This document shows, piece after piece, positions 12,706 through 55,177 of a stretch of 64,000 nt of DNA (within the stretch, counting starts at the first letter, position 1; each line of letters opens with the position of its first letter). Under the pieces are notes generated by a model that was given only the letters and a program-made list of their open reading frames with translations, made no database searches and was not told the origin of the DNA. Both the position numbers and the translations under genes were made by a program. The DNA comes from Flexivirga endophytica (lineage in GTDB: Bacteria > Actinomycetota > Actinomycetes > Actinomycetales > Dermatophilaceae), in assembly GCF_014640635.1 (NCBI RefSeq), contig NZ_BMHI01000001.1, forward strand, positions 558,001-622,000, read 5' to 3'.

Positions 12706-13007
12706 CACCGGGCTGACACGCCCTCTGACAAGTCGCCGGACAGGCGCGCCGATCCGTTATGGTGAGGCGCTCGTGTCCGGCGACTTCGTCGTCGGACACC
12801 TGCCTTCGTTCTGTGTCTCGGCACGCTCGAGGCAGACGGGATTGCGACCGGTGGTCTGCGGCAGCGCGGGCCGATCACGACGCCACGCAGCAATTTCGTT
12901 GTATGTCGGCAGTGGGTCGCTTATCCTGCCCGCAGCCAGATCGGGGGCAGTTGCCCGGCGGCACCCAACGCAGGTGTCTCGGTCCGCTGCGAGAGGAAGA
13001 GGATGCG
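12706..13007. promoter_or_regulatory. 302-bp gap with 13-bp inverted repeat where ileS is expected
   Basis: There is no gene here, although ileS usually lies between divIVA and the dksA-like gene in related genomes. AAGTCGCCGGACA (12730-12742) and TGTCCGGCGACTT (12774-12786) are a perfect 13-bp inverted repeat around a 31-nt loop that contains GTTATGGT, a possible -10. It may be the divIVA terminator, an operator for the next gene, or a deletion scar. Confidence 0.55.
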
Positions 13008-39327: not shown

Positions 39328-39344
39328 ACGGGCGAAGGAATTGA

Positions 39345-41038: not shown

Positions 41039-41045
41039 AAGCCCT

Positions 41046-41069
41046 TCAAGGAGAACGTCAAGGAGAACG
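41046..41069 (+). promoter_or_regulatory. Tandemly duplicated Shine-Dalgarno before binding protein 2
   Basis: TCAAGGAGAACG occurs twice head to tail (41046-41057, 41058-41069) directly before the ATG at 41070. The second copy's AAGGAG has near-ideal spacing; the first may be a standby site. Confidence 0.7.
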
Positions 41070-42062
41070 ATGACCAGCACAGTCACCAGGCGCGGCGTGC
41101 TCCGTTCGGCCGGCCTCGCCACCGCAGCGTTCAGTCTCGCCGCGTGTTCCTCCGGCAACACGAAGAGCGGCGCGGGGGCGGACAAGGTGCGCCTCTCGGT
41201 CGGCGTCGATCCGGCATACGCCCCGATCTACCTCGCACAGCGCGACGGCATGTTCGACACAGCAGGCGTGGCGGTCGAGTTCGTGCAGGTCGAGGGTGGT
41301 GCCGCTGGGGTGCAGAACATCTCGGCCGGCACCACCCACCTGTCGGTGAACGCTGATGCCACGGTCATTCCCGTGGCCGCCAAGAGCGACAAGATCGCGG
41401 CGATCGCGAGCTTCGAGCACTCGGACACCTACTTCAAGGTGGTGCTCCGCAAGGGGGTCGAGCCGGCCGACATCCACAGCATGGTCTATTTCCCGGGTCT
41501 GGGCGAGTACATGACCGGCAAGTACCTACGGAGCGTCGGCCGCGAGCCCAGCGACATCAAGATGGTGTCGGCGGCTCCGCCGGACTTCGATGCAATTCTC
41601 TCCAGGGGTGACGCCGACGGGTGCGTCATCTTCGATCCCTGGGTGTCGCGAGCGGTCAAACAGGGCGCGCGGGTGGTCGCCGAGAGCAAGGACTTCGACG
41701 CCGGGTTCAGCCAGTGGATCATCGCAGATGCCACCTGGCTGGAAAGTAATCAGAAGACCGCAGGCATCGTTGTCGACGTGCTCGGCAAGGCTGCAGCACG
41801 GATCCGGAAAGACCCCGACCTCGGTGTTCGGGCCACGGCGAAGCAGGTCGATGTGCCACAGAAGACGGCCGAATCAGCCGTGTCCGACATACATTTCGAG
41901 GTGCGTGGGTTCACCGACGAAGACTTCCGGGCGAGCCGTGACCTCGTGCGCTTCCTCACGTCCGTGGATGCGGTCGACGGTGAGGTCGACCTGCCCAAGG
42001 TCATGCGCCGCGGCTGGTATGCGCGGCACGCCGGCGCGGCCGGTCCGTCCTCCGGCGCCTGA
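41070..42062 (+). CDS. NMT1/SsuA-type ABC substrate-binding lipoprotein 2
   Basis: 330 residues. Twin-arginine TRRGVLRSAGLATAAF with lipobox LAAC (Cys26), so probably Tat-exported, unlike paralogue 1 which looks Sec-type. The mature part parallels paralogue 1: VRLSVGVDPAYAPIYLAQRD, GMFDTAGVAVEFVQVEGG, THLSVNADATVIPV, VIFDPWVSRAVKQGA, RGWYARHAG. Two binding proteins with one permease/ATPase pair suggests two ligands, or two affinities, for one importer. The gene converges with the alcohol dehydrogenase gene (1 bp apart). Confidence 0.9.
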   Translation: MTSTVTRRGVLRSAGLATAAFSLAACSSGNTKSGAGADKVRLSVGVDPAYAPIYLAQRDGMFDTAGVAVEFVQVEGGAAGVQNISAGTTHLSVNADATVIPVAAKSDKIAAIASFEHSDTYFKVVLRKGVEPADIHSMVYFPGLGEYMTGKYLRSVGREPSDIKMVSAAPPDFDAILSRGDADGCVIFDPWVSRAVKQGARVVAESKDFDAGFSQWIIADATWLESNQKTAGIVVDVLGKAAARIRKDPDLGVRATAKQVDVPQKTAESAVSDIHFEVRGFTDEDFRASRDLVRFLTSVDAVDGEVDLPKVMRRGWYARHAGAAGPSSGA

Positions 42063-42063
42063 A

Positions 42064-43032
42064 TCATCGAACGAGCTGGACCTTCAGACGCCCGGACGAG
42101 GGCTGTGCGGCCAGGTCGAACGCCAACTGTGCATCGGTGAAATCGAAGGTGTGCGAAACCAGTTGCTTCTGCAGTTCGGGGAACCGGCGCTGGTGGGCGA
42201 GTGCCGACTCCAGGCAGCGACGGCGCTCGGCCACGATCCCGCCGAACAGCGTGACGTGCTTGCGGAACAGCTCCTGCATGGGCAGCGGATAGACCGGCTC
42301 GTCGGGCACACCGAAGCAGAAGATCCGGCCGTCCTGCGCCACGGCCTCGACGGCATCGCTCAGTGTCGCTGTCTGGTGACCGACCGCTTCGATGATCAGG
42401 TCCGGCCGGTCGTCATCGGCCAGCGAGCGAGCCCATCGACCGGTCGCACTGTGCACGAGGGTGTTGATCCCGAAGGCATCGGCGATCGCCGATCGGTCCA
42501 GGCGGTCGACACCGACGACCTCGGCGGCGCCGGCGGCCGACAGGGTGTGGCAGAACAGCAGCCCGAACGGCCCGAGCCCCAGCACTGCGACGCGCAGGCC
42601 ATCGACCGGACCGAGCGACCGCACCGTCTCCAGGACGCAGGCAAGGGGTTGCAGGGTCAACGCGGTGGCCGAGTCGAGCTCATCCGGAACCGCCATCAGA
42701 CTGTCGCTGTCGGTCACCGTGTATTCAGCCAGTGCCGAGAACCTGGTCGCCCAGCCGACGGCCCGGCTGCTCACCGGCAACGCCGGGTCGTCGCTCGCGA
42801 CGACCTCGCCGACGACCTCGTGCAGTGGGAATCCCGGCACGTTCGCGGCCAACGGCGCTGCGTCGTCGAAGTGGGTACAGGTCTCGCCTCGGAAGTAGGG
42901 CAAGTCGCTGCCGCAGATCGCTCCCGCCTCCACCCGTAGCAGGGTTTCGCCGTGATGCAGCGCGGCAGGATCCGGTGCCTTCGCGTCCACCTGTTCGAAA
43001 ACGCCTGGCCGCACTAGCTGTTGAGCCCACAT
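42064..43032 (-). CDS. Zinc-type alcohol dehydrogenase/MDR family oxidoreductase
   Basis: 322 residues, medium-chain dehydrogenase. The catalytic zinc cysteine lies in GAICGSDLPYFRGE; the HE pair is in FPLHEVVGEV; the Rossmann fingerprint is VLGLGPFGLLFC. The structural-zinc four-cysteine lobe is missing. The ATG at 43032 has SD AAGGAG; a longer upstream frame is a shadow of the hydrolase gene. Last gene of the five-gene minus-strand operon that starts with ferredoxin reductase. A role in oxidising or reducing a catabolic alcohol or aldehyde is likely. Confidence 0.85.
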   Translation of the reverse strand: MWAQQLVRPGVFEQVDAKAPDPAALHHGETLLRVEAGAICGSDLPYFRGETCTHFDDAAPLAANVPGFPLHEVVGEVVASDDPALPVSSRAVGWATRFSALAEYTVTDSDSLMAVPDELDSATALTLQPLACVLETVRSLGPVDGLRVAVLGLGPFGLLFCHTLSAAGAAEVVGVDRLDRSAIADAFGINTLVHSATGRWARSLADDDRPDLIIEAVGHQTATLSDAVEAVAQDGRIFCFGVPDEPVYPLPMQELFRKHVTLFGGIVAERRRCLESALAHQRRFPELQKQLVSHTFDFTDAQLAFDLAAQPSSGRLKVQLVR

Positions 43033-43067
43033 ACCGGTCTCCTTCTCGTCGATACGAATGTCGATGG

Positions 43068-43850
43068 TCAGCGGGTCAGGTGGTCCTCGACCAGGTCGTT
43101 GAACCGCTGCGGTTGCTCGATCATGGGGGAGTGACCGCACCCGGCCATCTCGACCGCGCGCGACTCGGAGATGCCAGCCAGCAGCTCGGCGACATGGCGC
43201 GGGCTGCGGGCCGTGTCGTGCTCGCCACGGATCACCAGCGTTGGTGCGGTGATCCGGTTGAGTTCGCGGCGCAGGTCCAGGCGGCGCGAACTCACGAGCA
43301 CCGCGCTGAGGAAGTCCGGATCGGCGGCCAGGACCGTTCGCACGTACCCGTCGCGTTCCGCATGCGGACGTCGTTCGGCGGTCAGTGCGTCGACCAACCG
43401 CGGCGCCAGAGCACGACGGTCGGCAAGACCTCCCACCCATGCGTGGACAAGCTCACCGAACCGGCTCGGCGGCCCTCCCAGGGCGGCGCCGGTCCCGACC
43501 AGCACCAGCCTGCGGACGCGGTCAGGCCACCGGGCAGCCAGCAGTTGGGCGACGATGCCGCCGACGCTGTTGCCGACGACGTCGACCTGTGGCGCTTCGA
43601 TGCTGTCCAGCAGTGCGACTGCCGCCTCGGCGAGCCCTTCAGGGCCGGATGACGCTGACCAGTCGCCGTCGCCGAGCGCATACCAGTCGACCGCACAGGT
43701 CGGCGCTGCCAACTGCTCCGCCGTACGGTCCCAGAAGGCGCGGCAGCCGAACCACGGATGCAGCAGCAGCACAGGAAACCGCTGCGCATCGGTCCCGGCG
43801 GACGCGGTGTAGCGCAGCCCGGTGCCAGGCACAGCGAGTGTCGATGCCAC
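43068..43850 (-). CDS. Alpha/beta hydrolase with complete triad
   Basis: 260 residues. Ser95 in VVGNSVGGIVAQ, Asp212 in RGEHDTARSP and His240 in AGCGHSPMIEQP form a full triad; the oxyanion strand is LLLHPWFGCRAFWD. It resembles 3-oxoadipate enol-lactonase and meta-cleavage hydrolases. The GTG start has SD AGGAGGA. It lies between the SDR and ADH genes in the operon. The substrate may be an ester, lactone or C-C bond in the pathway. Confidence 0.88.
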   Translation of the reverse strand: MASTLAVPGTGLRYTASAGTDAQRFPVLLLHPWFGCRAFWDRTAEQLAAPTCAVDWYALGDGDWSASSGPEGLAEAAVALLDSIEAPQVDVVGNSVGGIVAQLLAARWPDRVRRLVLVGTGAALGGPPSRFGELVHAWVGGLADRRALAPRLVDALTAERRPHAERDGYVRTVLAADPDFLSAVLVSSRRLDLRRELNRITAPTLVIRGEHDTARSPRHVAELLAGISESRAVEMAGCGHSPMIEQPQRFNDLVEDHLTR

Positions 43851-43859
43851 GAATCCTCC

Positions 43860-44600
43860 TCAGCGAGCGGTGTATCCGCCATCCACGTGTATGACGGTCC
43901 CGGTCGTCCAACCGGCGGCGTCGTCCAACAGACCGACGATGATGTGGGCAATGTCCTCGGGCCGTCCCCACCGTCCTGCGGGGATCAGATCATCGAACTT
44001 GCTGGCGGCGTCGTCGGCGTTCATCGAGGTGCGGACCGGTCCGGGTGCGACGCAATTGACGGTGATCCCGGTCCGGGCAAGCTCCAGTGCGATCGACCGG
44101 CTGAGTGCGGCCACGGCGCCCTTGGTGGCCGCGTAACCCCCGCGCTCCGGCGTCCCGGTGCTGCCGAGCACCGACCCGATGGTGACGATCCGACCGTGTC
44201 CATGCTGCTGCATCGCCGGGACACAAGCGCGCATGGCGAGCCATGTGCCGTGCACATTGATCTGCCAGGCGGCCTCGAAGTCCTCCGGCGTCAGCGTCAG
44301 CAAGGAGCCGCGCGCCAGCCGTCCGGCGGTGGTCACCAGGCCGTCCAAACGGCCCCACCGGTCGATGACGGCTCGGACAACCGCGGTGAGATCTTCCGGG
44401 TTCGTGGTGTCGCCACGGCGCGCGAGCACGAGCTCCGGATCACCCTCGCTGCGAAGCTGGTTCGCCGCTTCGTCGGCTCGCTCCGCATCCCGGCCGAGTA
44501 TGGCGACGGGCCGACCCGCTCGCACGATCGCCGAGGCGACGCCTAGCCCGATGCCACTGGTGCCGCCCGTGACGAGGACCGGGCCGTTTCCAGCTGTCAC
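43860..44600 (-). CDS. Short-chain dehydrogenase/reductase
   Basis: 246 residues, classical SDR. Cofactor motif LVTGGTSGIGLG (9-20), then VTTAGR (NNAG equivalent), catalytic Ser143 (TIGSVLGS), Tyr156-x3-Lys160 (GGYAATKGA), and C-terminal VIHVDGGYTAR. Possibly a cis-dihydrodiol or hydroxyl dehydrogenase after the Rieske oxygenase (inference). The GTG start overlaps the ferredoxin stop (GTGA), so it is translated coupled to it. A longer frame to 44828 is an artefact of the ferredoxin gene on the same strand. Confidence 0.9.
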   Translation of the reverse strand: MTAGNGPVLVTGGTSGIGLGVASAIVRAGRPVAILGRDAERADEAANQLRSEGDPELVLARRGDTTNPEDLTAVVRAVIDRWGRLDGLVTTAGRLARGSLLTLTPEDFEAAWQINVHGTWLAMRACVPAMQQHGHGRIVTIGSVLGSTGTPERGGYAATKGAVAALSRSIALELARTGITVNCVAPGPVRTSMNADDAASKFDDLIPAGRWGRPEDIAHIIVGLLDDAAGWTTGTVIHVDGGYTAR

Positions 44601-44944
44601 TGGTTCGAGGGCAACGCTGCGACGAGTGGCGTGTCCACGCCGACCGGACCGAGCGCGGTGGCGCCGTTGGGGTCGCCGAGCGGTGCGTCGCGACCGGGCA
44701 GGATGTCGTGGAAGAACGACTCCTGATCGGTGAGGTAGGGGCTGAACTTCGGGTTCTTCTTCGCGACCCGGTCCACGACGATCGCCTCTACCGGGCACTC
44801 GACCTCGCAGGCGCCGCAGTCGATGCACTCGTTGCCGTTGATGTAGCTCTTGCGCTCACCGACGTAGATGCAGTCGACCGGGCACACGTCGATGCACGAG
44901 CGGTCGAGAATGTCGGTGCAGTCGGGTCCGATCACGTAGGCCAT
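44597..44944 (-). CDS. 7Fe-8S ferredoxin (3Fe-4S/4Fe-4S)
   Basis: 115 residues. Cysteines 9, 17, 21, 25, 40, 43, 46 and 50 give the FdxA pattern: a 3Fe-4S cluster (Cys9, 17, 50) and a 4Fe-4S cluster (Cys21, 40, 43, 46), seen in SCIDVCPVDCIY and CIDCGACEVECPVEAI. The C-terminal 40 residues are an actinobacterial extension. It lies between ferredoxin reductase and SDR genes and opposite the Rieske oxygenase gene, so it likely carries electrons to that oxygenase. Most CarAa-type systems use a Rieske or [2Fe-2S] ferredoxin, so a 7Fe type is of interest. Confidence 0.94.
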   Translation of the reverse strand: MAYVIGPDCTDILDRSCIDVCPVDCIYVGERKSYINGNECIDCGACEVECPVEAIVVDRVAKKNPKFSPYLTDQESFFHDILPGRDAPLGDPNGATALGPVGVDTPLVAALPSNQ

Positions 44945-44982
44945 GTCATGTTCCTTTCAGGGCACGGGGATTCGCGAGAAAT

Positions 44983-45978
44983 TCAGGACTCGTCGGTCGA
45001 GTGACCGGGAAAGAGGTTGAGGTCCGGGTCGAGTTCGACGGCGACGTGGTTGACCGCGGTGGCGACCTCTCCGAAGCCCACCGACATCAACCTGACCTTG
45101 CCGTCGAAGTCGGCGACGTCGCCGGCGGCGTAGACGCGCGGGACATTGGTGCGCATCGACCGGTCCACCTGGATCGACCGACCTGCCAGCTGCAGCCCCC
45201 AGGTGCGAAGCGGCCCGATGTCGGAGATGAAGCCGAGAGCGGCGATCACGTGATCCGCAGCGACGAGCCGCTCCTCTCCCGAGGTGTGAGTCACCGTCAC
45301 CTTCTGCAACTGCCCGTTCGCCAGGTCGCCGTCGAACGCGGTGACCTCGCACTCGGTGAGGACCGTCGTGTTCGGGGACGACTCGACCCGAGCGAGTGTG
45401 GCGGCGTGGCCCCGGAAGCCGGAGCGCCGGTGCACCAGTGTCACCGACGTGGCGAGCGTCGACAATGCATCGGCCCAGTCGAGGGCGGAGTCGCCTCCGC
45501 CGACGATCACCACGTCCTGGTCGCGGTGCACTTCGGGGTCGACCACGAAGTACGACAGACCACGGTCCAGCCATTGCGAACCCGCCTGCAGGGGACGGGG
45601 TTTCGGGGTGCCGATGCCCGCAGTGATGACCACTGCTCCCGCCTCGATCCGGGTGCCGTCGTCCAGGGTCACCACAGCTGCGTCCGATGAGTGCTCGACG
45701 GTGACGGCCTGGCGGCCGAGCAGATAGGTCGGCGAGAACGCGTCGGCCTGCTCTTTCAGCGCGGCGATGAAATCCCGGCCGCGGATGCTGGGCAGCCCGG
45801 CGACATCGCGGATCTGCTTCTCGGGATAGAGCGCCATCACCTGGCCGCCAACCTGGGGAAGGACGTCGACGACGATCGTCGACAGTCCACGGAATCCCGC
45901 GTAGTAGGCGCCATACAGCCCGGTCGGGCCGGCCCCGAGGATGAGGACGTCTGTCGCCAGTTTCTGCGCCTTGCTCAC
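44983..45978 (-). CDS. Ferredoxin-NADP+ reductase, thioredoxin-reductase-like type
   Basis: 331 residues. FAD motif VLILGAGPTGLYGAYYAG (12-29), NADPH motif VVIVGGGDSALDWADAL (about 156-172), and the C-terminal VYAAGDVADFDGKVRLMSVGFGE. The CXXC redox pair of thioredoxin reductase is absent, which assigns it to the TrxR-like FNR (YumC) group. It passes electrons from NAD(P)H to the ferredoxin encoded next. First gene of the operon, just behind the inverted repeat at 45986-46011. Confidence 0.93.
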   Translation of the reverse strand: MSKAQKLATDVLILGAGPTGLYGAYYAGFRGLSTIVVDVLPQVGGQVMALYPEKQIRDVAGLPSIRGRDFIAALKEQADAFSPTYLLGRQAVTVEHSSDAAVVTLDDGTRIEAGAVVITAGIGTPKPRPLQAGSQWLDRGLSYFVVDPEVHRDQDVVIVGGGDSALDWADALSTLATSVTLVHRRSGFRGHAATLARVESSPNTTVLTECEVTAFDGDLANGQLQKVTVTHTSGEERLVAADHVIAALGFISDIGPLRTWGLQLAGRSIQVDRSMRTNVPRVYAAGDVADFDGKVRLMSVGFGEVATAVNHVAVELDPDLNLFPGHSTDES

Positions 45979-45985
45979 GCTGACC

Positions 45986-46011
45986 TCCTGGTCTGCTTAC
46001 GGAGACCAGGA
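45986..46011. promoter_or_regulatory. 9-bp inverted repeat at head of reductase operon
   Basis: TCCTGGTCT (45986-45994) and AGACCAGGA (46003-46011), perfect, with an 8-bp spacer, 8 bp before the reductase start codon. It lies in the 247-bp gap that separates the two divergent catabolic operons (45979-46225), which holds no gene. Candidate operator for the island's IclR regulator. The left arm also holds the reductase SD (AGGAGGTCA read on the minus strand). Confidence 0.5.
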
Positions 46012-46225
46012 ATGTATGGAGGTATCCGCGCTGCCGTCTCGTGGTCTGGACCGCTCACCGGAATGGCGCTCTGAGACGGGCGAATCTGGCTGGTCGGGGC
46101 GGTGGATCGCCTCCCTGTGACGGCATTGTTCGGGGCGTGTTCCGGTGGCCGAACCGATGCGGTTGTGACGTGGTGCACAGCGGTGATGTTCTCGGTCCAG
46201 ACCCACCGACCACTGGAGTGAACCC

Positions 46226-47470
46226 ATGACGCAGACCGCTAACCCGGAGGCAGCAAACTCTGCCGAAGCACCTGCCACGCCGCGCAAGCCGGCGCGTCGG
46301 CATCGAGCCGGAAAGCTTCCGGGTCGTCAGGACTGGTCGACCTGGCCGCACTACAACGCGGCGAAGGCCGGCTTCCGTGGTTACTGGTATCCGGTCACGT
46401 ACTCCTCGCACGTGGGTGAGCGGCCGGTCCGCATCCGCTTGCTGGGCGAGGACATCGCGATCGTGCGCGACAAGGGCACGGTCTACGCATTGGCCAATCG
46501 GTGTCCCCACCGCGGGGTGCCTCTGACCTACGGCAACAAGCAGTTCCCCGGCACCTTGTCGTGCGTCTACCACGGTTGGACCTTCGACCTGAAGTCCGGC
46601 GACCTGTGTGCGGTCATCACGGACGGCCCCGACTCGCGCCTGTGCGGCAAGGTCACCCAACCGACGTATGACGTCGAAGAACGACTGGGCATGGTGTGGA
46701 TCTACGTCGGTGACGGTGAGCAGCCGCACCCGATCGACGAGCAACTGCCCGAAGAGCTCGTCGAGAACGCCGCGGTCGTCGGCTCGAGAATCCAACCACG
46801 CGAGGGCAATTGGCGCTTCGCCTGCGAGAACGGGTATGACGAGGGCCACGCCAAGTTCCTGCACCGCACCGCACTGTGGCGGATGTTCAAGGCCATGCCC
46901 GTCTGGAACATCACCCGCATCGAACGCCGCGGTCGTTGGATCTTCCGGGTGCAGGAGGAGCAGCACTGGTCGGCCGACTTCCCAGGTGTGGGCAAATGGA
47001 CCAGCCTGGCTTGGTACAAGAAGAAGCCGTCCGGGAAGGTCTCCAACATCGGCAACGTGGGCTCGCAGCGTGAGCCGAACCCGGTGATCGCGGAGCAGGG
47101 TTTCCCCGGGTTCGTGTCGGTGGCCATGCCCGGCATCCTCCGGGTGGTCTACCCCACCTTCATCCACTACGAGTTCTACACGCCGGTCGACGAGGACAAT
47201 CACCTGTATGTCGGCGTGATGGCCAACTTCAGCAAGGGAGTTCACACCCTCCCCTTCTACGTGAAATACCTCGGCGCCGTGCGCTGGCTCTTCCACGGAC
47301 AGTTCTCCAGCCAGGACAAGTGGATGGTCGAGATGACCGACGCACCCCCGGAGAAGCTCTACCGCCCTGACGCGTCCCTACTGCAGTGGCGTGCGCTGGC
47401 GGAGGACGTCACCGAGGCGCGCATCGAGCGCCTGACCGAACTCGGCCTCGCGCCGGCCGACGAGAGCTGA
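46226..47470 (+). CDS. CarAa-like Rieske non-haem iron oxygenase
   Basis: 414 residues. The Rieske [2Fe-2S] domain has C93-x-H95 (NRCPHRGVPL) and C113-x2-H116 (SCVYHGWTF). The mononuclear iron site is N202-x2-D205-x2-H208-x4-H213 (ENGYDEGHAKFLH). Residues around YWYPVTYS, RIRLLGEDIAIVRD, YDVEERLGMVWIYVGDG and GNWRFACENGYD resemble the terminal oxygenase of carbazole 1,9a-dioxygenase (CarAa), which works as a homotrimer without a beta subunit; none is encoded here either. It would hydroxylate an aromatic or heteroaromatic ring. Electron supply is probably the divergent ferredoxin/reductase. SD-like GGAG precedes the ATG. Confidence 0.9.
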   Translation: MTQTANPEAANSAEAPATPRKPARRHRAGKLPGRQDWSTWPHYNAAKAGFRGYWYPVTYSSHVGERPVRIRLLGEDIAIVRDKGTVYALANRCPHRGVPLTYGNKQFPGTLSCVYHGWTFDLKSGDLCAVITDGPDSRLCGKVTQPTYDVEERLGMVWIYVGDGEQPHPIDEQLPEELVENAAVVGSRIQPREGNWRFACENGYDEGHAKFLHRTALWRMFKAMPVWNITRIERRGRWIFRVQEEQHWSADFPGVGKWTSLAWYKKKPSGKVSNIGNVGSQREPNPVIAEQGFPGFVSVAMPGILRVVYPTFIHYEFYTPVDEDNHLYVGVMANFSKGVHTLPFYVKYLGAVRWLFHGQFSSQDKWMVEMTDAPPEKLYRPDASLLQWRALAEDVTEARIERLTELGLAPADES

Positions 47471-47482
47471 GGAGCGACACAC

Positions 47483-48430
47483 ATGTCCGCAATCACGTTG
47501 GGAGTGGGCGCTTCTCACTCCACCCTGATGAATACCCACTGGGACAAGGTGGTGCACACCGAGCGCGCCGCGGCCTTCCGCGACTCGCTCCAGCACGTCA
47601 ACCGGCGACTGCGGGAGCTCAACCCGGACGTCGCGGTCATCATCGGGTCGAACCATTTCCGGGGCTTCTGGCTCGACCTGATCCCGTCCTTCACGATGGG
47701 TGTCGGTGACGTCATCGCCTCGGGTGAGTCCGGCACGCCGAAGGGGCCCCAGAAGACCGACCCCGTCTTCGCGAATCAGTTGGCCACGCACCTGGTGGAA
47801 GCCGGGTCGGAGGTCGCGATCTCGGCGCGACTGCAGATCGACCACGGACAATCGCACGCCATCCAGTACCTGCTGGACGGCATCGACATCCCGGTGGTCC
47901 CGCTGGTCGTCAACGTCTTCGCGCAGCCGCTGCCAACCATCGAGCGGTGCGCCACCCTCGGGCGGCGGCTCGCCGACGCGATCGAGGCGAATGCTGAAGG
48001 ACGCAAGGTCGTCGTCATTGCCTCCGGCGGCCTGTCACACCAGTTGCCTTGGCCGAGCGACTGGTCAAATCCGCAGGACGACGACGAGGAGTTCATGGTC
48101 GACGCCTGGCTGAACGGGCGCGGCGAGTGGGAACGCTACGACAAGCGTCGGCGGGAGATCATCGTCGCCGCGCAGCCATGCATCTTCGAGGACTTCGACG
48201 CGCAGTTCCTCGCCGACCTGGAGGCCGGTGACCTCGAGAAGTACACCGAGCTGTCCACCCCCGAGCTGGAGAAGATCGCCGGCAACGGCGGGCAGGAGCT
48301 GCGCACCTGGCTGGTGATGGCAGCCGCACTCGGCTTCGCACCCGGCTCTTCTCTCTGCTACTCGCCGATGCCCGAGTGGCTCACCGGGATGGGCGCCGCA
48401 CTCATCGAACCCGCAGGAGGCGACGCATGA
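47483..48430 (+). CDS. LigB-superfamily class III extradiol dioxygenase (MhpB-like)
   Basis: 315 residues, similar in length and pattern to 2,3-dihydroxyphenylpropionate 1,2-dioxygenase MhpB: GVGASHSTLMNTHWD (first His), VIIGSNHFRGFWLDLIPSF, QIDHGQSHAIQYLLDG, IASGGLSHQLPWP (metal/acid-base His) and the C-terminal SPMPEWLTGMGAAL. It opens a catechol-like ring next to the hydroxyls using Fe(II). It starts 12 bp after the Rieske stop and overlaps the next gene by 4 bp, fitting the order oxygenase, ring-cleavage enzyme, hydrolase. Confidence 0.92.
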   Translation: MSAITLGVGASHSTLMNTHWDKVVHTERAAAFRDSLQHVNRRLRELNPDVAVIIGSNHFRGFWLDLIPSFTMGVGDVIASGESGTPKGPQKTDPVFANQLATHLVEAGSEVAISARLQIDHGQSHAIQYLLDGIDIPVVPLVVNVFAQPLPTIERCATLGRRLADAIEANAEGRKVVVIASGGLSHQLPWPSDWSNPQDDDEEFMVDAWLNGRGEWERYDKRRREIIVAAQPCIFEDFDAQFLADLEAGDLEKYTELSTPELEKIAGNGGQELRTWLVMAAALGFAPGSSLCYSPMPEWLTGMGAALIEPAGGDA

Positions 48431-49353
48431 CCACCGAGCCGATGGATCGAGTAGGGCGAGGGACGAGCCCCTATCGCGACCCAAGCACCTCGCCGGCGCC
48501 GGGGCCGGCCCCGGAAAGCCATTTCGTCGATGCCGACGGCGTCACCGTCCACTACCACGACGTCGGGCAGGGGCAGGACACGATCTTCCTGCACGGTGGC
48601 GGACCAGGCTGCACCGCATGGAGCGACTTCGGTGCTGTCACACCGCTTTTCGCGGCGGACCGGCGTTGCGTCCTGCAGGACCTGCTGCAGTACGGCAAGT
48701 CGGACAAGTGCCGCATCACCGGCCCGATGTGGGACTTCCACGCTGCCAAGACCGTCGCCTTCATGGACGCACTCGGCATCGAGCGTGCCGACCTGATCTG
48801 CAACTCGTGGGGCGGCACGATCGCGCTCGCGACAGCCGCTTACTACCCGGACCGTGTTCGCTCACTGGTCATCACCGGCTCCATGCCGGTGTTCTACGGA
48901 CCTTTGGCACCGCTGCCCGAGCAAGGGCACCGCGGGCGCTCGGCTCGCGACGTCTACTACGGCGGAGAGGGACCGACGCGGGACAAGATGCGCGAGTTGA
49001 TCACCCGCCTCGAGTGGTATGCCGCACAACGCCTCCCCGAGGAGACGCTCGATCTGCGTTACCGGCAGAGCCTGGACCCGGAGGAGCGCGCGCTCGCCGC
49101 GATGTCGGACTCGCCGCGCGGCGACTGGCAGGACCTCACCGAGCAGCTCGGCAAGGTGCTCGCACCGACATTGTTCATCTGGGGTCGGGAGGACGCGTTC
49201 CTTACCCCGGACTACCCGCTGATGCTCTCCAGGATGCTGCCGCGCGGAAATCTGCACGTCATGGACCACGTCTCCCACCACCTGCAAGAGGAGCGCCCCG
49301 GTGCGTACCACGCGATCGTCGACGGATTCCTCCGCTCGGTCGATCACCCATAG
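48427..49353 (+). CDS. MhpC/BphD-like meta-cleavage product hydrolase
   Basis: 308 residues, alpha/beta hydrolase. The oxyanion segment FLHGGGPGCTAWSDF is characteristic of C-C hydrolases of meta-cleavage pathways. Nucleophile Ser127 in LICNSWGGTIAL, Asp256 in IWGREDAFLTP, His284 or His285 in DHVSHHLQEERPG. It should cleave the vinylogous 1,5-diketone from ring opening, giving 2-hydroxypenta-2,4-dienoate and an acid. The ATG overlaps the dioxygenase stop. The N-terminal 25 residues are Pro/Ser/Thr-rich and unstructured. Confidence 0.92.
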   Translation: MTTEPMDRVGRGTSPYRDPSTSPAPGPAPESHFVDADGVTVHYHDVGQGQDTIFLHGGGPGCTAWSDFGAVTPLFAADRRCVLQDLLQYGKSDKCRITGPMWDFHAAKTVAFMDALGIERADLICNSWGGTIALATAAYYPDRVRSLVITGSMPVFYGPLAPLPEQGHRGRSARDVYYGGEGPTRDKMRELITRLEWYAAQRLPEETLDLRYRQSLDPEERALAAMSDSPRGDWQDLTEQLGKVLAPTLFIWGREDAFLTPDYPLMLSRMLPRGNLHVMDHVSHHLQEERPGAYHAIVDGFLRSVDHP

Positions 49354-49418
49354 GCGCCTGGCCTGATCGCGGCACCAGGCTCTCCGTACGAGCCCCTCAT
49401 CCGAAGGAAGTTCTCGCA

Positions 49419-49565
49419 ATGAAGTCTCGCTATCTCGTGGCCGGCTCTGTCGCCGGCGCCGCCGGCCTGCTGGGTCTGAGCCAGCGACTCGCGCTGCACC
49501 GGCGACTGATCCCGCGCCTGACCTCGCGGATCAATACGCAGGTTCATCGCATCAACCAGCCATGA
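49419..49565 (+). CDS. 48-residue membrane peptide in the meta-cleavage operon
   Basis: An open frame too short for usual thresholds: 48 codons, SD GAAGGAAG (49402-49409), ATG 49419. The peptide has MKSRY, a hydrophobic stretch LVAGSVAGAAGLLGLS (6-21), then a strongly basic tail (RLALHRRLIPRLTSRINTQV). It looks like a single-span or amphipathic small membrane protein. Its stop overlaps an in-frame ATG of the next gene's frame (49562). Not matched to any known family; its position between two hydrolases of a catabolic operon is conserved-looking but unverified. Confidence 0.5.
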   Translation: MKSRYLVAGSVAGAAGLLGLSQRLALHRRLIPRLTSRINTQVHRINQP

Positions 49566-49600
49566 ACACATCATCTCCGTCGACCAGTAAGGGATCTGAC

Positions 49601-50479
49601 ATGACCAACGACCTGACCGACACCATCTGGACCGAGCTGGCCGGGCTCGACTTCAAGGTCACCACCGTCGATGCCGGGGGAGTGCCGACGCGCTCACTAC
49701 AGGCCGGAAACGGTGAGGAGGCAGTGGTTTTCCTGCACGGCACCAGCGGCCACCTCGAGGCGTTCATCCGCAACATCCGGTCGCACGCGGAGAAATACAC
49801 CGTGCACGCGATCGACATGCTCGGCCACGGCTACACCGGCAAGCCCGACTATCCCTACGAGATCCCGAAGTACCGCGACCACCTGCTGGCCTACCTCGAC
49901 GCCGTCGGTATCGACAAGGCGCACATCGGTGGCGAGTCACTCGGCGGCTGGGTCGGCGCCCGCGCCGCCATCGACGACCCCGACCGCATCGCGAGCCTGC
50001 AGCTGTTGTGCGCGGGAGGCACCGTGGCCAACCCCGCGGTGATGGATCGGATCCGCACCAGCACCCGCAAGGCGGTGTCGACGGAAGACGTCGAGTTCAC
50101 CCGGAAGCGTCTGCAGTTGCTGATGGCCGACGCTGCCGACGCGACCGAGGAGCTCGTCGCGACGCGGTACGCGATCTACCACCAGCCGGACTTCGTCACC
50201 AATGTCGAGAACCTCCTGAGCCTGCAGGACATGGAGACCCGCCAGCGCAACATCCTCCGGCCGGAGGACCTGGCCAAGATCGACGTCCCCACCCTGATCG
50301 TCTGGGGACGCAACAACCCGTTCGGTGAGACGCCGGAGGCTGACGCGATGCATCAGCACATCAAGGGTTCCGAACTGGTCCTCTTCGAGGACTGCGGCCA
50401 CTGGCCGCAGCACGAGCAGGCTGCGAAGTACAACCCGATCAGCCTCGACTTCATCGGCCGGAACCGGGCCCACTCATGA
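49601..50479 (+). CDS. Alpha/beta hydrolase 2 of the meta-cleavage operon
   Basis: 292 residues from the ATG at 49601, which has SD AAGGGA; an earlier ATG at 49562 has none. Ser113 in IGGESLGGWVGA and His267 in DCGHWPQHEQ are clear. The acid position reads WGRN238-N239-PF where relatives have Asp, so the acid may be supplied elsewhere or the enzyme may have changed activity. Oxyanion strand VVFLHGTSGHLEAFI. It may share a substrate class with the MhpC-like enzyme or act on an amide or ester intermediate. Next gene overlaps by 4 bp. Confidence 0.85.
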   Translation: MTNDLTDTIWTELAGLDFKVTTVDAGGVPTRSLQAGNGEEAVVFLHGTSGHLEAFIRNIRSHAEKYTVHAIDMLGHGYTGKPDYPYEIPKYRDHLLAYLDAVGIDKAHIGGESLGGWVGARAAIDDPDRIASLQLLCAGGTVANPAVMDRIRTSTRKAVSTEDVEFTRKRLQLLMADAADATEELVATRYAIYHQPDFVTNVENLLSLQDMETRQRNILRPEDLAKIDVPTLIVWGRNNPFGETPEADAMHQHIKGSELVLFEDCGHWPQHEQAAKYNPISLDFIGRNRAHS

Positions 50480-51486
50480 CCACAATGGCTGCGGTCCGCG
50501 TCCACGGGTGGGGCGAACCACCTGTCGCAGAAGAGGTTTCGACCCCCGAAGTAGTCGCGGACGAGGCGCTGGTGCGGATCGAGGCCGCTGCCGTCGGGCA
50601 CCTCGATCGCACCGTCGCGGGTGGCGACTTCGGGGTGAAGCCTCGGCTGCCCTACATCGGCGGGGTCGAGGGCTGCGGCACCGTCGTGTCCTCGGCGCTG
50701 CACGCCGCGGGCACGAGAGTGATGCTCCGCGGCGGGGGCCTGGGCCTGACCCGCGACGGCACGTGGGCCGAGTTCGTCCGGGTGCCGGAGAAGAACCTCG
50801 TGGTGCTCCCGGACGGCATGGGGCCGGCGCTGGGTGCGACCTACTTCGTTCCTGTGACCACCGCGGCATGCGCGCTGCGGTCGATAGGGCGCCTCGGCAC
50901 GTGGGGTGTGCCGGACGTCGAGTCGGCGGCGGACGAGGTGGTGCTCGTTGCAGGCGCCGCCGGTGCGGTCGGGTCGATGGTGGCGCAGCTGGCGTTGCGG
51001 GACGGCGCCAAGGTGCTCGGCCTGGTGCTCGACCAGGGCCAGGCGGACCGCTTGCCGGACGGTGTCGAGCCAGTGCTCGCCGGTGACGCGAAGCATGCGC
51101 ACACGTTGCACGAGGAACGTCCCGGGACACTCCTCGTCGACACGCTCGGCGGGCGGGAACTCGGTGACCGGATGCACTGGGTGCGCCCCGGCGGCCGGGC
51201 CGTGCTCATCGGCTACGTCACCGGCGAGGAGGCCACGCTGGACCTGCCCAACTGGCTGCTCCAGGACGTCGCGCTGCTGCCGACCAACATGATCCGCCGC
51301 AACCGTGAGGCTCGCAAGTATGCCGAGGAGCTCGCGCCGCTGCTCGTCTCCGGTGACCTGCAGCTCGCGGTCGAAGAGTTCGGGTTCGACCAGGCAGCAA
51401 CAGTTTTCGAGCGTATGGCGGCAGGTGGCATCAACGGTCGAGCAGTCCTGCAGCCGCGTTCCGGTCGACAAGAGTCGGAGTCATGA
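50476..51486 (+). CDS. MDR-family NAD(P)H:quinone/enoyl reductase-like oxidoreductase
   Basis: 336 residues, zinc-free medium-chain reductase: VRVHGWGEPPVAEEV, GVEGCGTVV, Rossmann motif VLVAGAAGAVGSMVAQLAL (about 155-173), LVDTLGGRELGDRMHWVRPG, GRAVLIGYV. No zinc ligands are visible. It probably reduces a double bond or quinone in the pathway. Starts on ATGA overlapping the preceding stop and ends overlapping the hydratase gene. Confidence 0.88.
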   Translation: MTTMAAVRVHGWGEPPVAEEVSTPEVVADEALVRIEAAAVGHLDRTVAGGDFGVKPRLPYIGGVEGCGTVVSSALHAAGTRVMLRGGGLGLTRDGTWAEFVRVPEKNLVVLPDGMGPALGATYFVPVTTAACALRSIGRLGTWGVPDVESAADEVVLVAGAAGAVGSMVAQLALRDGAKVLGLVLDQGQADRLPDGVEPVLAGDAKHAHTLHEERPGTLLVDTLGGRELGDRMHWVRPGGRAVLIGYVTGEEATLDLPNWLLQDVALLPTNMIRRNREARKYAEELAPLLVSGDLQLAVEEFGFDQAATVFERMAAGGINGRAVLQPRSGRQESES

Positions 51487-52313
51487 CCCAGGACGTCACC
51501 CCGCCGGTCGCGCAGGCGGCGGAGCGGCTGCGATATGCCGACACGATGCGTCGCACCTGCGCTCCGGTGCGCGAACTGATCGGCCGCGACAACGTCGAGG
51601 CGGCATACGCCGTCCAGCAGCACGTGGTGGCCCTGCGCGAGATCAGCGGCGACCACGTCGTCGGCCGGAAGGTCGGCCTGACTGCCCGCGCGGTGCAGGA
51701 TCAACTCGGCGTGCACGAGCCGACGATCGGGACGCTCATGGAGAGCATGCAGGTCCATGACGGTGCCGTCGTGCCGGTGCGCCGACTGTTGCAGCCGCTC
51801 GTCGAGGCCGAGGTCGTCTTCCGGCTGGGCGAGGATCTCGATGAGGCGGAGGTCGATCCGCAGCGCGCGCGGTCTGCGGTCTCGGAGGTGCTCGCCGGCA
51901 TCGAGGTGGTCGACAGCCGGATCGACAAGTGGGACATCACCCGAGTCGATACCATTGCTGACAATGCCTCCGCGGGACTTTTCGTACTCGCTCCGGAGGG
52001 TCGTCCGATCGGGAAACTGGATCTCGGAGAGTTCGCGATGAAGTTGCGCTGCAACGGCAAGGTGGCGTCCCGCGGCTCCGGTGCCGACAACTTCCACGGC
52101 GACCCCCTGCGCGGGCTGGCCTGGCTGGCGGGCGAGGCGCATCGCCGCGGAACGCCGCTGCGCGCGGGCCAGATCGTGCTCGCCGGAGCGCTCGGACCGA
52201 TGGTCGAGGTGCACGAGGACGACTCCTTCGACGCCGTGATCGGCGACCTGCCGCCGGTGTCGGTCCACTTCCGCTCCAGCGTCGCGGCGCGGGAAGCCGG
52301 AGTGCTCTCGTGA
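51483..52313 (+). CDS. 2-keto-4-pentenoate hydratase family protein (MhpD-like)
   Basis: 276 residues, fumarylacetoacetase superfamily. VVGRKVGLTARAVQDQLGV holds the conserved Lys; the metal-binding acids lie in LVEAEVVFRLGEDL, with E-x-E-x then the later Glu in VLAGIEVVDSR. FADNASAGLF-like stretch reads IADNASAGLFVLAP. It should hydrate 2-hydroxypenta-2,4-dienoate to 4-hydroxy-2-oxovalerate. The aldolase and acetaldehyde dehydrogenase that normally follow (MhpE, MhpF) are not in this window. Confidence 0.92.
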   Translation: MTQDVTPPVAQAAERLRYADTMRRTCAPVRELIGRDNVEAAYAVQQHVVALREISGDHVVGRKVGLTARAVQDQLGVHEPTIGTLMESMQVHDGAVVPVRRLLQPLVEAEVVFRLGEDLDEAEVDPQRARSAVSEVLAGIEVVDSRIDKWDITRVDTIADNASAGLFVLAPEGRPIGKLDLGEFAMKLRCNGKVASRGSGADNFHGDPLRGLAWLAGEAHRRGTPLRAGQIVLAGALGPMVEVHEDDSFDAVIGDLPPVSVHFRSSVAAREAGVLS

Positions 52314-53611
52314 CGGTCTGCGAGCAGCAGGTCGACGCGGTCATGGCACACGTGGATCGCGACCTACTGGTGGACGCCGTGTGCGGGCTGGTCGACATAC
52401 CGAGCCCGACCGGCGCGGAGCGGCCGGCCGCGTCCTGGCTGGTCGATCACCTGGCCGCCGCCGGGGTGGACTCCACCCTGCAGGTCATCGACGACGAGCA
52501 GGCCAACGCGGTCGGCGTCCTGCCCGGCGCCCCGGACGGCGAGACGGTGCTGCTCTATGCGCCGCTGGACACGTACACGACCGGCATCGAGGCGCTCGAC
52601 ATCCCGGACGCCGGCCCGCGGATGCGTGAGGACATGCTCCCGCACGCAACGGTGTATGACGACGTGGTCGTGGGCCTCGCGGCGGGTAACCCCAAGGGAC
52701 ACGCGGCCAGCATCCTGGTCGCGATCGAGGCGATGAAGCGCTCCGGCATCGAGATGCCCGGTGACGTCGTCGCCGCTTTCGGCGCGGGCGGCATGCCCAG
52801 CTTCGCCGTCGACGGGGTCGGGGTCCGGGGTCGCACGAACACGGGGCACGGGGTCGGAGCGAACTTCCTGCTCGAGCGTGGATTCACCACGGACCACGCA
52901 ATCATCGCCAAGCCCGGCTGGACGGTGTCCCACGAGGAGGTGGGGCTGACCTGGGTCGACATCGAGATCTCGGGGCAGCACAGCTATGTCGGCAGTCGCC
53001 ACCGGATGCCCTACCGCAACGCACCGAGGGACGCGGCGCGCGTCATCGAGGTGTTGGAGACCTGGTGCGAGGCGTATGCCGAGCGGCACGAGACGGGCAC
53101 CATGCGACCGCAGGGCGTGGTGTCGTCGGTGCACGGCGGCTTCGAGCGACTGGCCGCATCGACCTCGGCATCCGTCAGGGTGCGCATGGACATCCGGACG
53201 ACACCGGAGCAGACCGCGCAGTCGGTGGTCCGTGAAGTGCGAAATGCGCTGGCACCGTTGGAGACCGAGCTGGGGACGCGGTTTCACGTCCGGCAGGTCG
53301 CCTCCGTGCCCGCGAGTCGCACGGACCCGGACGCGCCGATCGTGCGCGCGACGATCGCGGCCTGGGAGGCCGTGGCCGGCGAGCGACACGAGCCGGTGCT
53401 CGCCAACAGCGGTGCGACCGACGCGAACATCCTGCGGATGCGCGGTGTGCCGACGGCGCGTGTCGGGATGCCGAAGATCCAGCAGGGACCCGGCGGACGG
53501 CCCGTCGATTTCACGCTGGGGATGAATGCCGTTGACGTAGGGGAGATGCGGCGCCTCGTCGAGGTGCTCGTGCGTGCGGTAAGGGGCGTTTGGGAATCAC
53601 GTCAGGAGTAG
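52310..53611 (+). CDS. M20-fold protein without the M20 metal ligands
   Basis: 433 residues with an M20/ArgE-like layout: catalytic-domain start LVDIPSPTGAERPAASWLVD, a lid domain (HEEVGLTWVDIEISGQHSYV), then SGATDANILRMRGVPTARVG and a C-terminal GPGGRPVDFTLGMN. The metal positions are changed: the GHxD motif is APLD (Pro85, Asp87), the bridging Asp region is GNPKG (Asn127), the catalytic Glu-Glu is replaced by FGAGGMP (about 157-163), the next acid is AKPGW, and the final His is absent. It is probably not a zinc peptidase; it could bind an amide-like intermediate or have new chemistry. Overlaps the hydratase by 4 bp, so belongs to the operon. Confidence 0.8.
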   Translation: MTVCEQQVDAVMAHVDRDLLVDAVCGLVDIPSPTGAERPAASWLVDHLAAAGVDSTLQVIDDEQANAVGVLPGAPDGETVLLYAPLDTYTTGIEALDIPDAGPRMREDMLPHATVYDDVVVGLAAGNPKGHAASILVAIEAMKRSGIEMPGDVVAAFGAGGMPSFAVDGVGVRGRTNTGHGVGANFLLERGFTTDHAIIAKPGWTVSHEEVGLTWVDIEISGQHSYVGSRHRMPYRNAPRDAARVIEVLETWCEAYAERHETGTMRPQGVVSSVHGGFERLAASTSASVRVRMDIRTTPEQTAQSVVREVRNALAPLETELGTRFHVRQVASVPASRTDPDAPIVRATIAAWEAVAGERHEPVLANSGATDANILRMRGVPTARVGMPKIQQGPGGRPVDFTLGMNAVDVGEMRRLVEVLVRAVRGVWESRQE

Positions 53612-53613
53612 TG

Positions 53614-54396
53614 ATGACAACCGGCTCTCATGAGTTGCCCTACGGCGACGGCCAAGGACACGGTGCCAACAGCGTGCTGGGGAAGGCACGACTGATCTTG
53701 GAGGCCTTCCAGCACGACGACGTCGAGCTGTCCCTCTCGGAGTTGTCCCGCAGGACCGGGGTCTCGAAGGCGTCGGTCCACCGACTTGCCCAGGAGCTGG
53801 TCGAGTGGGGCATGCTCGAGCGGTCCGGTTTCGAATACCGTTTGGGTATGCGGGCTTTCGAGCTTGGCTCGCGCGTGCCGCGGTTCCGGGTGCTGCGGGA
53901 CGCTGCCCGGCCGACGATGGAGCGGCTGCACTTCACGACGAACGAAGCGGTGCACCTGGCCGTCAAGGACGGTCTCGAGGCGATCTACCTCGAGAAGGTC
54001 GCCGCCGGTGAGAAGTCGGCCAAGCCGTCCCGGATCGCCGGCCGGATGCCTTTGCACGCCACGGCAACCGGCAAGGCACTGGTCGCCTTCTCACCACCGG
54101 CGGTGCTGTCGGAGGTCGTCAGCCGTGAGCTGGTCCGCTTTACACCGCACACGACCGTGGCGCCGGGCCTGCTGCTCAAGCAGATCCAGCGGGTGCGCGA
54201 GGTGGGCTTCGCCCTGGAGGAGGATGAGGTGACGCTCGGCTACTGCTCGGTCGCCGTCCCGATCTTCAGCGGCAGCCGGCTGCTGCTCGGTGCCCTCTCG
54301 ATCACCGCGCCCACCTACCGGGCGGACGTGCACCGCTTCTCGGCTGCGCTGCTGGAGGCAAGCCACCGGTTGTCCACCTCCAACCTCGTCAACTGA
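53614..54396 (+). CDS. IclR-family transcriptional regulator
   Basis: 260 residues. Winged HTH at about 20-80 (VLGKARLILEAFQHDDVELS, LSELSRRTGVSKASVHRLAQ), then an IclR effector domain: LHFTTNEAVHLAVKDGLEAIYLEKV, RMPLHATATGKALVAFSPP, FALEEDEVTLGYCSVAVPIF. IclR proteins control aromatic catabolic genes and bind pathway intermediates. The ATG follows CAGGAG. It is at the end of the meta-cleavage operon and is the only regulator in the island, so it is the best candidate to bind the inverted repeats at 45986 and 36485. Confidence 0.92.
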   Translation: MTTGSHELPYGDGQGHGANSVLGKARLILEAFQHDDVELSLSELSRRTGVSKASVHRLAQELVEWGMLERSGFEYRLGMRAFELGSRVPRFRVLRDAARPTMERLHFTTNEAVHLAVKDGLEAIYLEKVAAGEKSAKPSRIAGRMPLHATATGKALVAFSPPAVLSEVVSRELVRFTPHTTVAPGLLLKQIQRVREVGFALEEDEVTLGYCSVAVPIFSGSRLLLGALSITAPTYRADVHRFSAALLEASHRLSTSNLVN

Positions 54397-54406
54397 TCGA
54401 GACCGT

Positions 54407-55177
54407 TCAGCGGCCTTCGAAGCGTGGCTCGCGCTTGTCGAGGAACGCCTGCAGGCCCTCGGCAGGATCCGCGAGGTCGAGGTTGGCCCGGACGTATGTC
54501 GCCTCGCGGTCTATCGCCGCATCGAGCGGCAGCTCGAGGTTGTCGTCGACGACGCGCTTGATCAGCCCGACGGTGGCGGTTGGTCGCGTCGCGAGCCGGA
54601 TTGCCTCGCAACGCACGACCTCGTCGAAGTCGGCACCGGCCACGATGTCGACCAGCCCCTGGTCGAGTGCTTCGGCGGCGGACAGTCGCGTGCCGTCGAT
54701 CATCAGCCGCTTGGCGCGATGTGGTCCGATCAGGCGTGGGAGTCGTTGACTCCCACCGGCACCCGGAAAGATCCCCAGGTTTGACTCGGGGAAGCCGAAG
54801 GTCGCGCGTTCGTGCAGGATGCGCAGGTCACACGCGAGGGCGAGCTCGGCCCCGCCGCCGAGCGTGTGACCGTTGAGGGCGGCAATGACCGGTTTGGGTG
54901 CGCGCACGAGCAGTTGCTGCACGACGGTCCAGCGCCGCATCGCGGTGTAGGTGTCCGGGTCGAGGCGGCGCATCACGCGGATGTCCGCACCGCCGACGAA
55001 GACCTTTCCCTTGCCGCGTATCACCACCGCCCGCACCGCCGGGTCCTCGGTGACCGTCGGCAGCACCTCGATGAGTGCCTCGATAAGCGGTGGGTCGACG
55101 GTGTTCACCGGCCCGTGGTCCAGCACCACGGTGGCGACGGGGCCGTCATAATCGATCCGGAAGCCGGGTTCGGTCAT
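54407..55177 (-). CDS. Enoyl-CoA hydratase/isomerase family protein
   Basis: 256 residues, crotonase fold. Oxyanion segment KVFVGGADIRVM, LNGHTLGGGAELALACDL with Glu111, and FPESNLGIFPGAGGSQRLPR with Glu131: both catalytic glutamates are present, so hydratase activity is plausible. It hydrates or isomerises an enoyl-CoA. Starts on ATGA overlapping the CoA-transferase stop; last gene of a three-gene CoA operon (ligase, transferase, hydratase). Its stop is 10 bp from the converging IclR gene's stop. Confidence 0.92.
   Translation of the reverse strand: MTEPGFRIDYDGPVATVVLDHGPVNTVDPPLIEALIEVLPTVTEDPAVRAVVIRGKGKVFVGGADIRVMRRLDPDTYTAMRRWTVVQQLLVRAPKPVIAALNGHTLGGGAELALACDLRILHERATFGFPESNLGIFPGAGGSQRLPRLIGPHRAKRLMIDGTRLSAAEALDQGLVDIVAGADFDEVVRCEAIRLATRPTATVGLIKRVVDDNLELPLDAAIDREATYVRANLDLADPAEGLQAFLDKREPRFEGR

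Follow-up and report, generated by a model that had tools for sequence, protein, structure and literature searches.

Gene organization of the island

The 64,000-nucleotide stretch of the Flexivirga endophytica genome analyzed in this study (assembly GCF_014640635.1, contig NZ_BMHI01000001.1, positions 558,001 to 622,000; hereafter the window) contains an aromatic-catabolism island, in which a Rieske oxygenase, meta-cleavage enzymes, an M20-like protein and a 48-residue micropeptide are encoded together. An earlier sequence-only reading had placed an apparently complete but unassigned cluster at 42064-54396, an observation that could be partly confirmed as a whole. The enzymes and the IclR regulator it had listed are present in that region, and the gene names used here are backed by family searches, with the exception of ABH_A, a transporter permease and an enoyl-CoA hydratase (ECH), which were assigned by eye.

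The genes are arranged in two divergent operons that meet at about 45.98-46.23 kb, and the proposed coupling was borne out by intergenic gaps between -4 and 65 bases. The plus-strand operon starts with the alpha subunit of a Rieske oxygenase (46226..47470) resembling CarAa and 2-oxo-1,2-dihydroquinoline 8-monooxygenase (OMO), as identified by the Pfam families Rieske and Aromatic_hydrox and by PDB matches to both proteins. It is followed by a LigB/MhpB-like class III extradiol dioxygenase (47483..48430), an MhpC/HsaD-like C-C bond hydrolase (48427..49353), the micropeptide (49419..49565), a second meta-cleavage-hydrolase-like protein termed ABH_B (49601..50479), a medium-chain reductase of the quinone oxidoreductase/acrylyl-CoA reductase type (QOR; 50476..51486), an MhpD-like 2-hydroxypentadienoate hydratase (51483..52313), the M20-fold protein (52310..53611) and an IclR-type regulator (53614..54396), the successive gaps, Rieske gene through IclR gene, being 12, -4, 65, 35, -4, -4, -4 and 2 bases. 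The minus-strand operon comprises a thioredoxin-reductase-like protein, the putative ferredoxin reductase (44983..45978), an FdxA-type ferredoxin as putative electron donor (44597..44944), a short-chain dehydrogenase (SDR; 43860..44600), the alpha/beta hydrolase ABH_A (43068..43850) and a zinc-type alcohol dehydrogenase (ADH; 42064..43032), the gaps being 35, 9, -4 and 38 bases in ascending coordinate.

Conservation of the island core in actinobacteria

Three aligned Rieske proteins served as the query for a scan of genome contigs, which found 156 relatives; the best 80 were fetched, all with record titles naming actinobacteria. Together with two further loci (L005 and L006) they form a set of 82 loci, in which a gene was scored as present at ≥40% identity unless stated otherwise. 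As this set was chosen on Rieske similarity, the Rieske gene is present by construction, and some loci stop at contig ends. LigB, the M20-like gene and ABH_B were each found in 81 loci, the MhpC-like gene in 79 and IclR in 70, while the remaining parts are variable: ferredoxin in 58, its putative reductase in 57, QOR in 47 (57 at ≥35%), the MhpD-like gene in 19 and SDR in 14. In one locus, L018, neither LigB nor the M20-like gene was found within the stretch examined. The order of the core genes (initials of Rieske, LigB, MhpC-like, ABH_B, QOR and M20-like) also varies among loci, from R-L-C-B-Q-M to R-L-M-C-B-Q and R-M-L-B. The idea of a singular cluster is not supported, since its core recurs in 82 loci, and the suggested search for Rieske, LigB, M20-like protein and 48-residue peptide in combination was rewarded, the peptide being present in all 80 loci of the Rieske scan. 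Nor is it supported that all of the genes originally listed belong to the pathway, as ADH was near the Rieske gene in 0/82 loci and ABH_A in 1/82.

Independently of the Rieske-based choice of loci, 396 genomes of the phylum were searched, and the M20-like protein (E ≤ 1e-40) was found in three, the same three that carry the Rieske protein (E ≤ 1e-70). With the Flexivirga genome itself counted among the three, the co-occurrence has a p value of 9.7e-8, and a hand calculation that leaves it out (two of 395 genomes) gives about 1.3e-5. The island is common among soil actinobacteria, Nocardioides alcanivorans (L028) being one carrier, and its conservation strongly disfavors an assembly by chance.

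Inspection by eye also revealed a copper amine oxidase-like protein near the core in eight loci (representative L017) and an aldehyde dehydrogenase in 14 (L009), which perhaps feed an amine precursor. In the divergent locus L005 (5439-6995 and 13347-14753), a cytochrome P450, a PaaK-like ligase and an amidase adjoin the core, again as judged by eye.

The M20-like protein

The M20-like protein matches PF01546 with 27.7 bits (cut-off 24.6), and its M20 fold was corroborated by Foldseek. The metal-ligand positions of M20 metallopeptidases, by contrast, are replaced in 83/83 aligned homologues, whereas Pro85 (PxD, with Asp87), Asn127/Lys129 (NPK), Gly160-Gly161 and Lys201 are retained in all 83, including a protein from Cupriavidus described below. 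A profile built from 65 sequences (the window protein and 64 of 79 full-length locus copies) was compared with solved structures and matched 5-nitroanthranilate aminohydrolase (PDB 5K8M-5K8P) at E 1.1e-39, the next different protein following at 2.2e-11. Likewise, when the AlphaFold2 model (pLDDT 91.8) was used as a Foldseek query, the first 12 chains were all 5-nitroanthranilate aminohydrolase (TM 0.76-0.83), ahead of other M20 structures. In the alignment to the 5K8M/5K8P chains, a His and a Glu of the aminohydrolase, which we take to be metal ligands, correspond to Pro85 and Lys201, while Asn127 is an Asn in both proteins. The M20-like protein is a candidate nitrogen-removing enzyme and a candidate C-N hydrolase.

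A quinoline-type locus in Cupriavidus necator C39

Among 72,556 plasmid records, only one relative of the M20-like protein was found at E ≤ 1e-20, on megaplasmid p1 of Cupriavidus necator C39 (NZ_CP068436). It is 32% identical to the window protein (182 bits) and shares with it P85, D87, N127, K129, G160, G161 and K201. Its gene stands third in a row after a Rieske gene and a reductase gene (the latter assigned by eye); 25 and 34 bases separate the three. That this Rieske protein should be OMO was stated before the comparison, and it aligned end to end with OMO (1Z01) at 863 bits. On the divergent side, in a stretch that spans the start point of the circular record, are genes for MhpB, MhpD, MhpF, MhpE and a BphD-like hydrolase. 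MhpB scored 565 bits, above the NCBIfam cut-off of 467, but fell below the cut-off of 549 of a sister model; MhpD scored 399 bits, above the cut-off of one model (350); MhpF and MhpE also exceeded NCBIfam cut-offs, while the BphD-like hydrolase stayed below its own (376.7 bits, cut-off 462). Judged by its genes, this unannotated locus is the set expected for the quinoline 8-hydroxycoumarin route, with the M20-like protein included. Two genes that, by eye, resemble those for the large and iron-sulphur subunits of a molybdenum hydroxylase lie on the minus strand of L089 (23957-26687), at a distance of over 15 kb from the OMO genes of Cupriavidus.

Oxygenase, ring-cleavage and accessory enzymes

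The single PF00866 (ring-hydroxylating beta subunit) match of the Flexivirga genome lies on a different contig, so that the Rieske oxygenase has no linked beta subunit, as the sequence-only reading had proposed. C93/H95/C113/H116, D205, H208, H213 and D364 are conserved in its aligned homologues and are presumably the cluster ligands and iron-site residues. The best PDB matches are to CarAa (160 bits, ~30% identity), and with 112 bits to 1Z01, compared with 863 for the Cupriavidus protein, it fails as an OMO orthologue.

LigB is encoded by a single gene (315 aa) and is a class III extradiol dioxygenase by its PF02900 match (116.8 bits) and by the conservation of H12, H58 and E272, which we assume to form the metal site. 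When LigB was searched against plasmids, identity did not exceed 34.2% among the 20 of 65 matching records listed. S127, D256 and H285 of the MhpC-like protein, presumably its catalytic Ser-Asp-His set, are retained across the aligned homologues, and ABH_B carries a conserved Asn239 where the alignment with 2D0D/1IUN has the catalytic Asp. QOR belongs to a family other than that of the XenA-type (old-yellow-enzyme) reductases. None of the six PF02738 (molybdenum hydroxylase) matches of the genome lies inside the window. MhpE is encoded elsewhere in the genome (554 bits), the MhpD-like gene occurs in few loci, and the substrate can only be inferred, so that "apparently complete" was too strong a description of the cluster.

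The conserved micropeptide

The micropeptide also proved worth pursuing, as had been suggested. Its counterparts are short open reading frames of 34-70 residues (median 39; starts partly guessed) with a hydrophobic start and a near-invariant C-terminal end close to NTQVHRINQ, the tail conserved in the window copy. It is encoded between the MhpC-like gene and ABH_B, and in loci of the Streptomyces-type order between the Rieske and M20-like genes. A profile seeded with two sequences already detected it in 52 of 84 (E < 1e-3). With a profile built from 81 of the same sequences, which is circular, it was found in 81 of the 84, with a lowest score of 35 bits versus 11.0 for the best shuffled decoy; the three in which this profile did not find it are L005, L006 and L087, the last being the Cupriavidus locus. 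Locus L015 holds two copies, one at 13202 on the plus strand before ABH_B and the other at 16510-16815 on the minus strand before a relocated M20-like gene.

Among 19 copies of the Streptomyces type, the first, second and third codon positions differ at 0.152, 0.133 and 0.281, and all pairs together give 1451 synonymous versus 1497 non-synonymous codon differences. The 60 bases upstream of these copies differ at 0.556, but lie partly within the Rieske gene and are hence no neutral control. The codon-position pattern agrees with a translated gene, though it is no proof of one. In the 396 genomes of the phylum, a full match was found in the Flexivirga genome alone; five others gave weak, partial matches of 18.8-20.7 bits, which were regarded as noise in view of a lowest accepted score of 35 bits, and G226 and G279, two holders of the island core, gave no match. 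Plasmid searches with two micropeptides returned no match either, and the strings TQVHRIN and VHRINQ were not found in the literature searched. The structure prediction shows one long helix (residues 2-29) and a short helix, with the tail at low confidence, and our guess is that the peptide might serve as a membrane-anchored docking or assembly peptide.

Flanking genes

The island extends beyond 42064-54396 and spans about 34.6-59.0 kb, because genes on both sides recur alongside the core elsewhere. On the left these are represented by ABH_C (34613..35410, minus strand), an alpha/beta hydrolase with His97 (GHHTG) at the nucleophile-elbow position, conserved in an alignment of 50 sequences, which occurs in 48/82 loci (52 at ≥35%). 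On the right, three minus-strand genes (54407-58979) encode ECH (54407..55177; 40/82 loci), a CaiB-type CoA transferase of double length (55174..57420; 51/82), whose matches to the models of succinate-glutarate and mesaconate CoA-transferase fell short of the cut-offs, and an AMP-forming acyl-CoA ligase (57420..58979; 24/82, 38 at ≥35%). The presence of ligase, transferase and hydratase points to a side-chain acid that differs from plain succinate, which agrees with the sub-cut-off score of LigB discussed below.

Between ABH_C and the minus-strand operon lie two accessory genes, for a luciferase-like (LLM) oxidoreductase (PF00296; 35407..36471, minus strand, start uncertain; 6/82 loci) and for a thiamine-diphosphate (ThDP) enzyme with TPP_enzyme domains (36597..38228, plus strand; 1/82), followed by an ABC transporter of the SsuA/NitT-TauT type (38341..42062, plus strand) with a binding protein (16/82), ATPase (19/82), permease (18/82) and second binding protein (2/82). 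A transporter had been counted within 42064-54396, but it lies just before this region, which opens instead with the ADH gene. An FAD-dependent oxidoreductase (Pyr_redox_3) at 59082-60410 adjoins the ligase gene and has no match in any of the 82 loci. Elsewhere in the window, the block 12001-14000 shows a high AT skew (0.361).

Comparison with known systems

With the 8-hydroxycoumarin (quinoline, OMO) pathway the island shares a Rieske oxygenase without linked beta subunit, a LigB-type dioxygenase, a C-C hydrolase, MhpD and the M20-like protein as found in the OMO row of Cupriavidus, the last a feature recognized here from one locus rather than a published criterion. It differs in its distant Rieske protein, in a LigB score under the MhpB cut-offs and in a window free of molybdenum hydroxylase, and it adds hydrolases, CoA enzymes, IclR and the micropeptide. 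The carbazole car cluster likewise has meta-cleavage and a C-C hydrolase, and its CarAa may be of the same type as the Rieske protein of the island, but it uses the two-subunit CarB dioxygenase, whereas the island has a single-gene LigB together with the M20-like protein and the micropeptide. The phenylpropionate mhp cluster is similar in its LigB, MhpC- and MhpD-like genes; in the island, LigB and MhpD stay below the respective cut-offs (165 versus 286 and 240 versus 350 bits), and no flavin hydroxylase (MhpA) was found among the genes scanned at 42064-54396. A car or mhp identity was rejected, in line with the sequence-only reading.

The lum (lumichrome) cluster of Nocardioides simplex, as far as the accessible portion of its description goes, also combines Rieske and extradiol enzymes for the catabolism of an N-heterocycle in an actinobacterium, but has a two-subunit Rieske oxygenase, a xanthine oxidase and a pyrone hydrolase where the island has the MhpC-like step (PMC12746152). 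The riboflavin/lumichrome pathway, considered because of the ThDP and LLM genes, was rejected on these differences and on the rarity of both genes. The iad auxin pathway was rejected as well, since its Rieske oxygenase has a small subunit according to the accessible text. In the available parts of its descriptions, the hcd (7-hydroxycoumarin) cluster of Pseudomonas mandelii resembles the island in an extradiol dioxygenase, a hydrolase and an ADH-type coumarin reductase (PMC7913881, PMC6222606), but employs the flavin hydroxylase HcdA in place of a Rieske oxygenase (PMC6222606). Literature searches by mechanism listed nothing judged to be on point.

Proposed pathway and alternatives

The genes, their conservation and linkage and the catalytic residues retained in the Rieske, LigB and MhpC-like proteins are observed; the individual reactions, their order and the substrate are inferred, the reactions from the enzyme families. 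By analogy, we consider the chances evenly poised that the actinobacterial island follows a variant of the quinoline 8-hydroxycoumarin logic, directed at a 2-oxo N-heterocycle resembling 2-quinolone or oxindole, or else at a related ortho-amino aromatic. The nitrogen heterocycle that had been guessed at earlier gains support from two relatives of the M20-like protein: the only one found on a plasmid belongs to an OMO-type quinoline locus, and the closest one of solved structure is an aminohydrolase of an aromatic compound. In the quinoline route, as proposed in the accessible portion of PMC9029321, 2-hydroxyquinoline is converted via 2,8-dihydroxyquinoline to 8-hydroxycoumarin and NH4+, and further to 2,3-dihydroxyphenylpropionate; XenA is described as the 8-hydroxycoumarin reductase in the available text of PMC5519977. 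In the island, the single-subunit Rieske oxygenase would receive electrons from NAD(P)H by way of the thioredoxin-reductase-like protein and the FdxA-type ferredoxin, and would hydroxylate the ring carbon adjoining the nitrogen-bearing carbon. The M20-like protein would then exchange the ring nitrogen for oxygen and free ammonia, comparable to the step from 2,8-dihydroxyquinoline to 8-hydroxycoumarin. QOR, where present, may saturate the side chain, a hydrolase would open the lactone, and LigB would cleave the resulting catechol before the MhpC-like enzyme cuts the C-C bond. MhpD, MhpE and MhpF, partly encoded elsewhere, would yield pyruvate and acetyl-CoA, while ligase, CoA transferase and hydratase may process the side-chain acid. 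2-Quinolone, oxindole-3-acetate, coumarin and a benzoxazinoid were considered as substrates.

Several observations weigh against this proposal. The window Rieske protein scores higher with CarAa (160 bits) than with OMO (112 bits) and is only ~29% identical to the OMO orthologue of Cupriavidus. LigB, far under the MhpB cut-offs, implies a ring substrate different from that of MhpB, and the absence of QOR at ≥40% from 35/82 loci implies that the reduction step may not be general. Molybdenum hydroxylases convert quinolines to 2-oxo heterocycles; with the five proteins of this genome as queries, such genes were found near the core in only 2/83 loci, so that the substrate, if an N-heterocycle, is probably pre-oxidized at carbon 2. 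Without metal ligands, the M20-like protein may not share the reaction of 5-nitroanthranilate aminohydrolase along with its fold. The proteobacterial link rests on one locus, whose M20-like protein matched no Pfam family at 1e-5. An amidase, an NtaA/DmoA-type (LLM) monooxygenase and a flavin reductase are encoded there too, so that the M20-like protein is not the sole candidate for nitrogen removal in that locus. Finally, HcdE, the ADH-type coumarin reductase known from the accessible part of PMC7913881, did not use quinolin-2(1H)-one.

It is possible, though doubtful, that the substrate is free of nitrogen, such as coumarin, a hydroxyphenylalkanoate or an alkylphenol. The Rieske protein would then be a phenol ortho-hydroxylase, LigB and MhpC would cleave the catechol, and the M20-like protein, which without metal ligands need not be a hydrolase, would act on a lactone or as a tautomerase/isomerase. 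LigB, MhpC and MhpD are indeed closest to phenylpropionate-type catabolism, and QOR would suit a coumarin reductase of the kind described in the available text of PMC7913881; this is countered by the retention of the M20-like protein in 81/82 loci and by the same two relatives that point to nitrogen. We regard it as unlikely that the Rieske oxygenase itself removes the nitrogen through attack on the carbon that bears it, an angular dioxygenation as known for carbazole and for the quinoxaline step in riboflavin breakdown, with the M20-like protein hydrolyzing or isomerizing an intermediate that carries an amide or amino group, either ahead of ring cleavage or following it. The closest solved Rieske protein is carbazole 1,9a-dioxygenase, and ring-opening of a quinoxaline by a Rieske enzyme is reported in the accessible portion of PMC12746152, but the lum Rieske there has a beta subunit (LumD), lum as described lacks a meta-cleavage C-C hydrolase step, and in Cupriavidus the M20-like protein accompanies a monooxygenase, OMO. 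That most of 42-54 kb is a chance gathering of broad-specificity genes is highly improbable: the scarcity of ADH, ABH_A, ThDP and LLM genes (0, 1, 1 and 6 of 82 loci) would fit, but LigB, the M20-like gene and ABH_B are each retained in 81 loci despite varied order, along with the linked micropeptide.

Implications

Under the quinoline-type proposal, we speculate that a metal-free M20-fold enzyme removes nitrogen hydrolytically from a hydroxylated N-heteroaromatic ring, filling the gap in the 8-hydroxycoumarin route, and that an island-specific membrane micropeptide, whose tail is a near-invariant NTQVHRINQ, serves to dock enzymes of the pathway on the membrane, although the two together make a rather improbable conjunction. 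The interpretation offered by the sequence-only reading is partly supported as a whole. For the nitrogen-removing step, for which the accessible portions of the literature searched show no visibly named gene, a gene candidate is now at hand, and an M20 enzyme without metal ligands becomes testable. The micropeptide illustrates that a conserved gene can easily be missed by gene-length cut-offs. Together, these genes would tie a common island of soil actinobacteria to the turnover of N-heterocycles.

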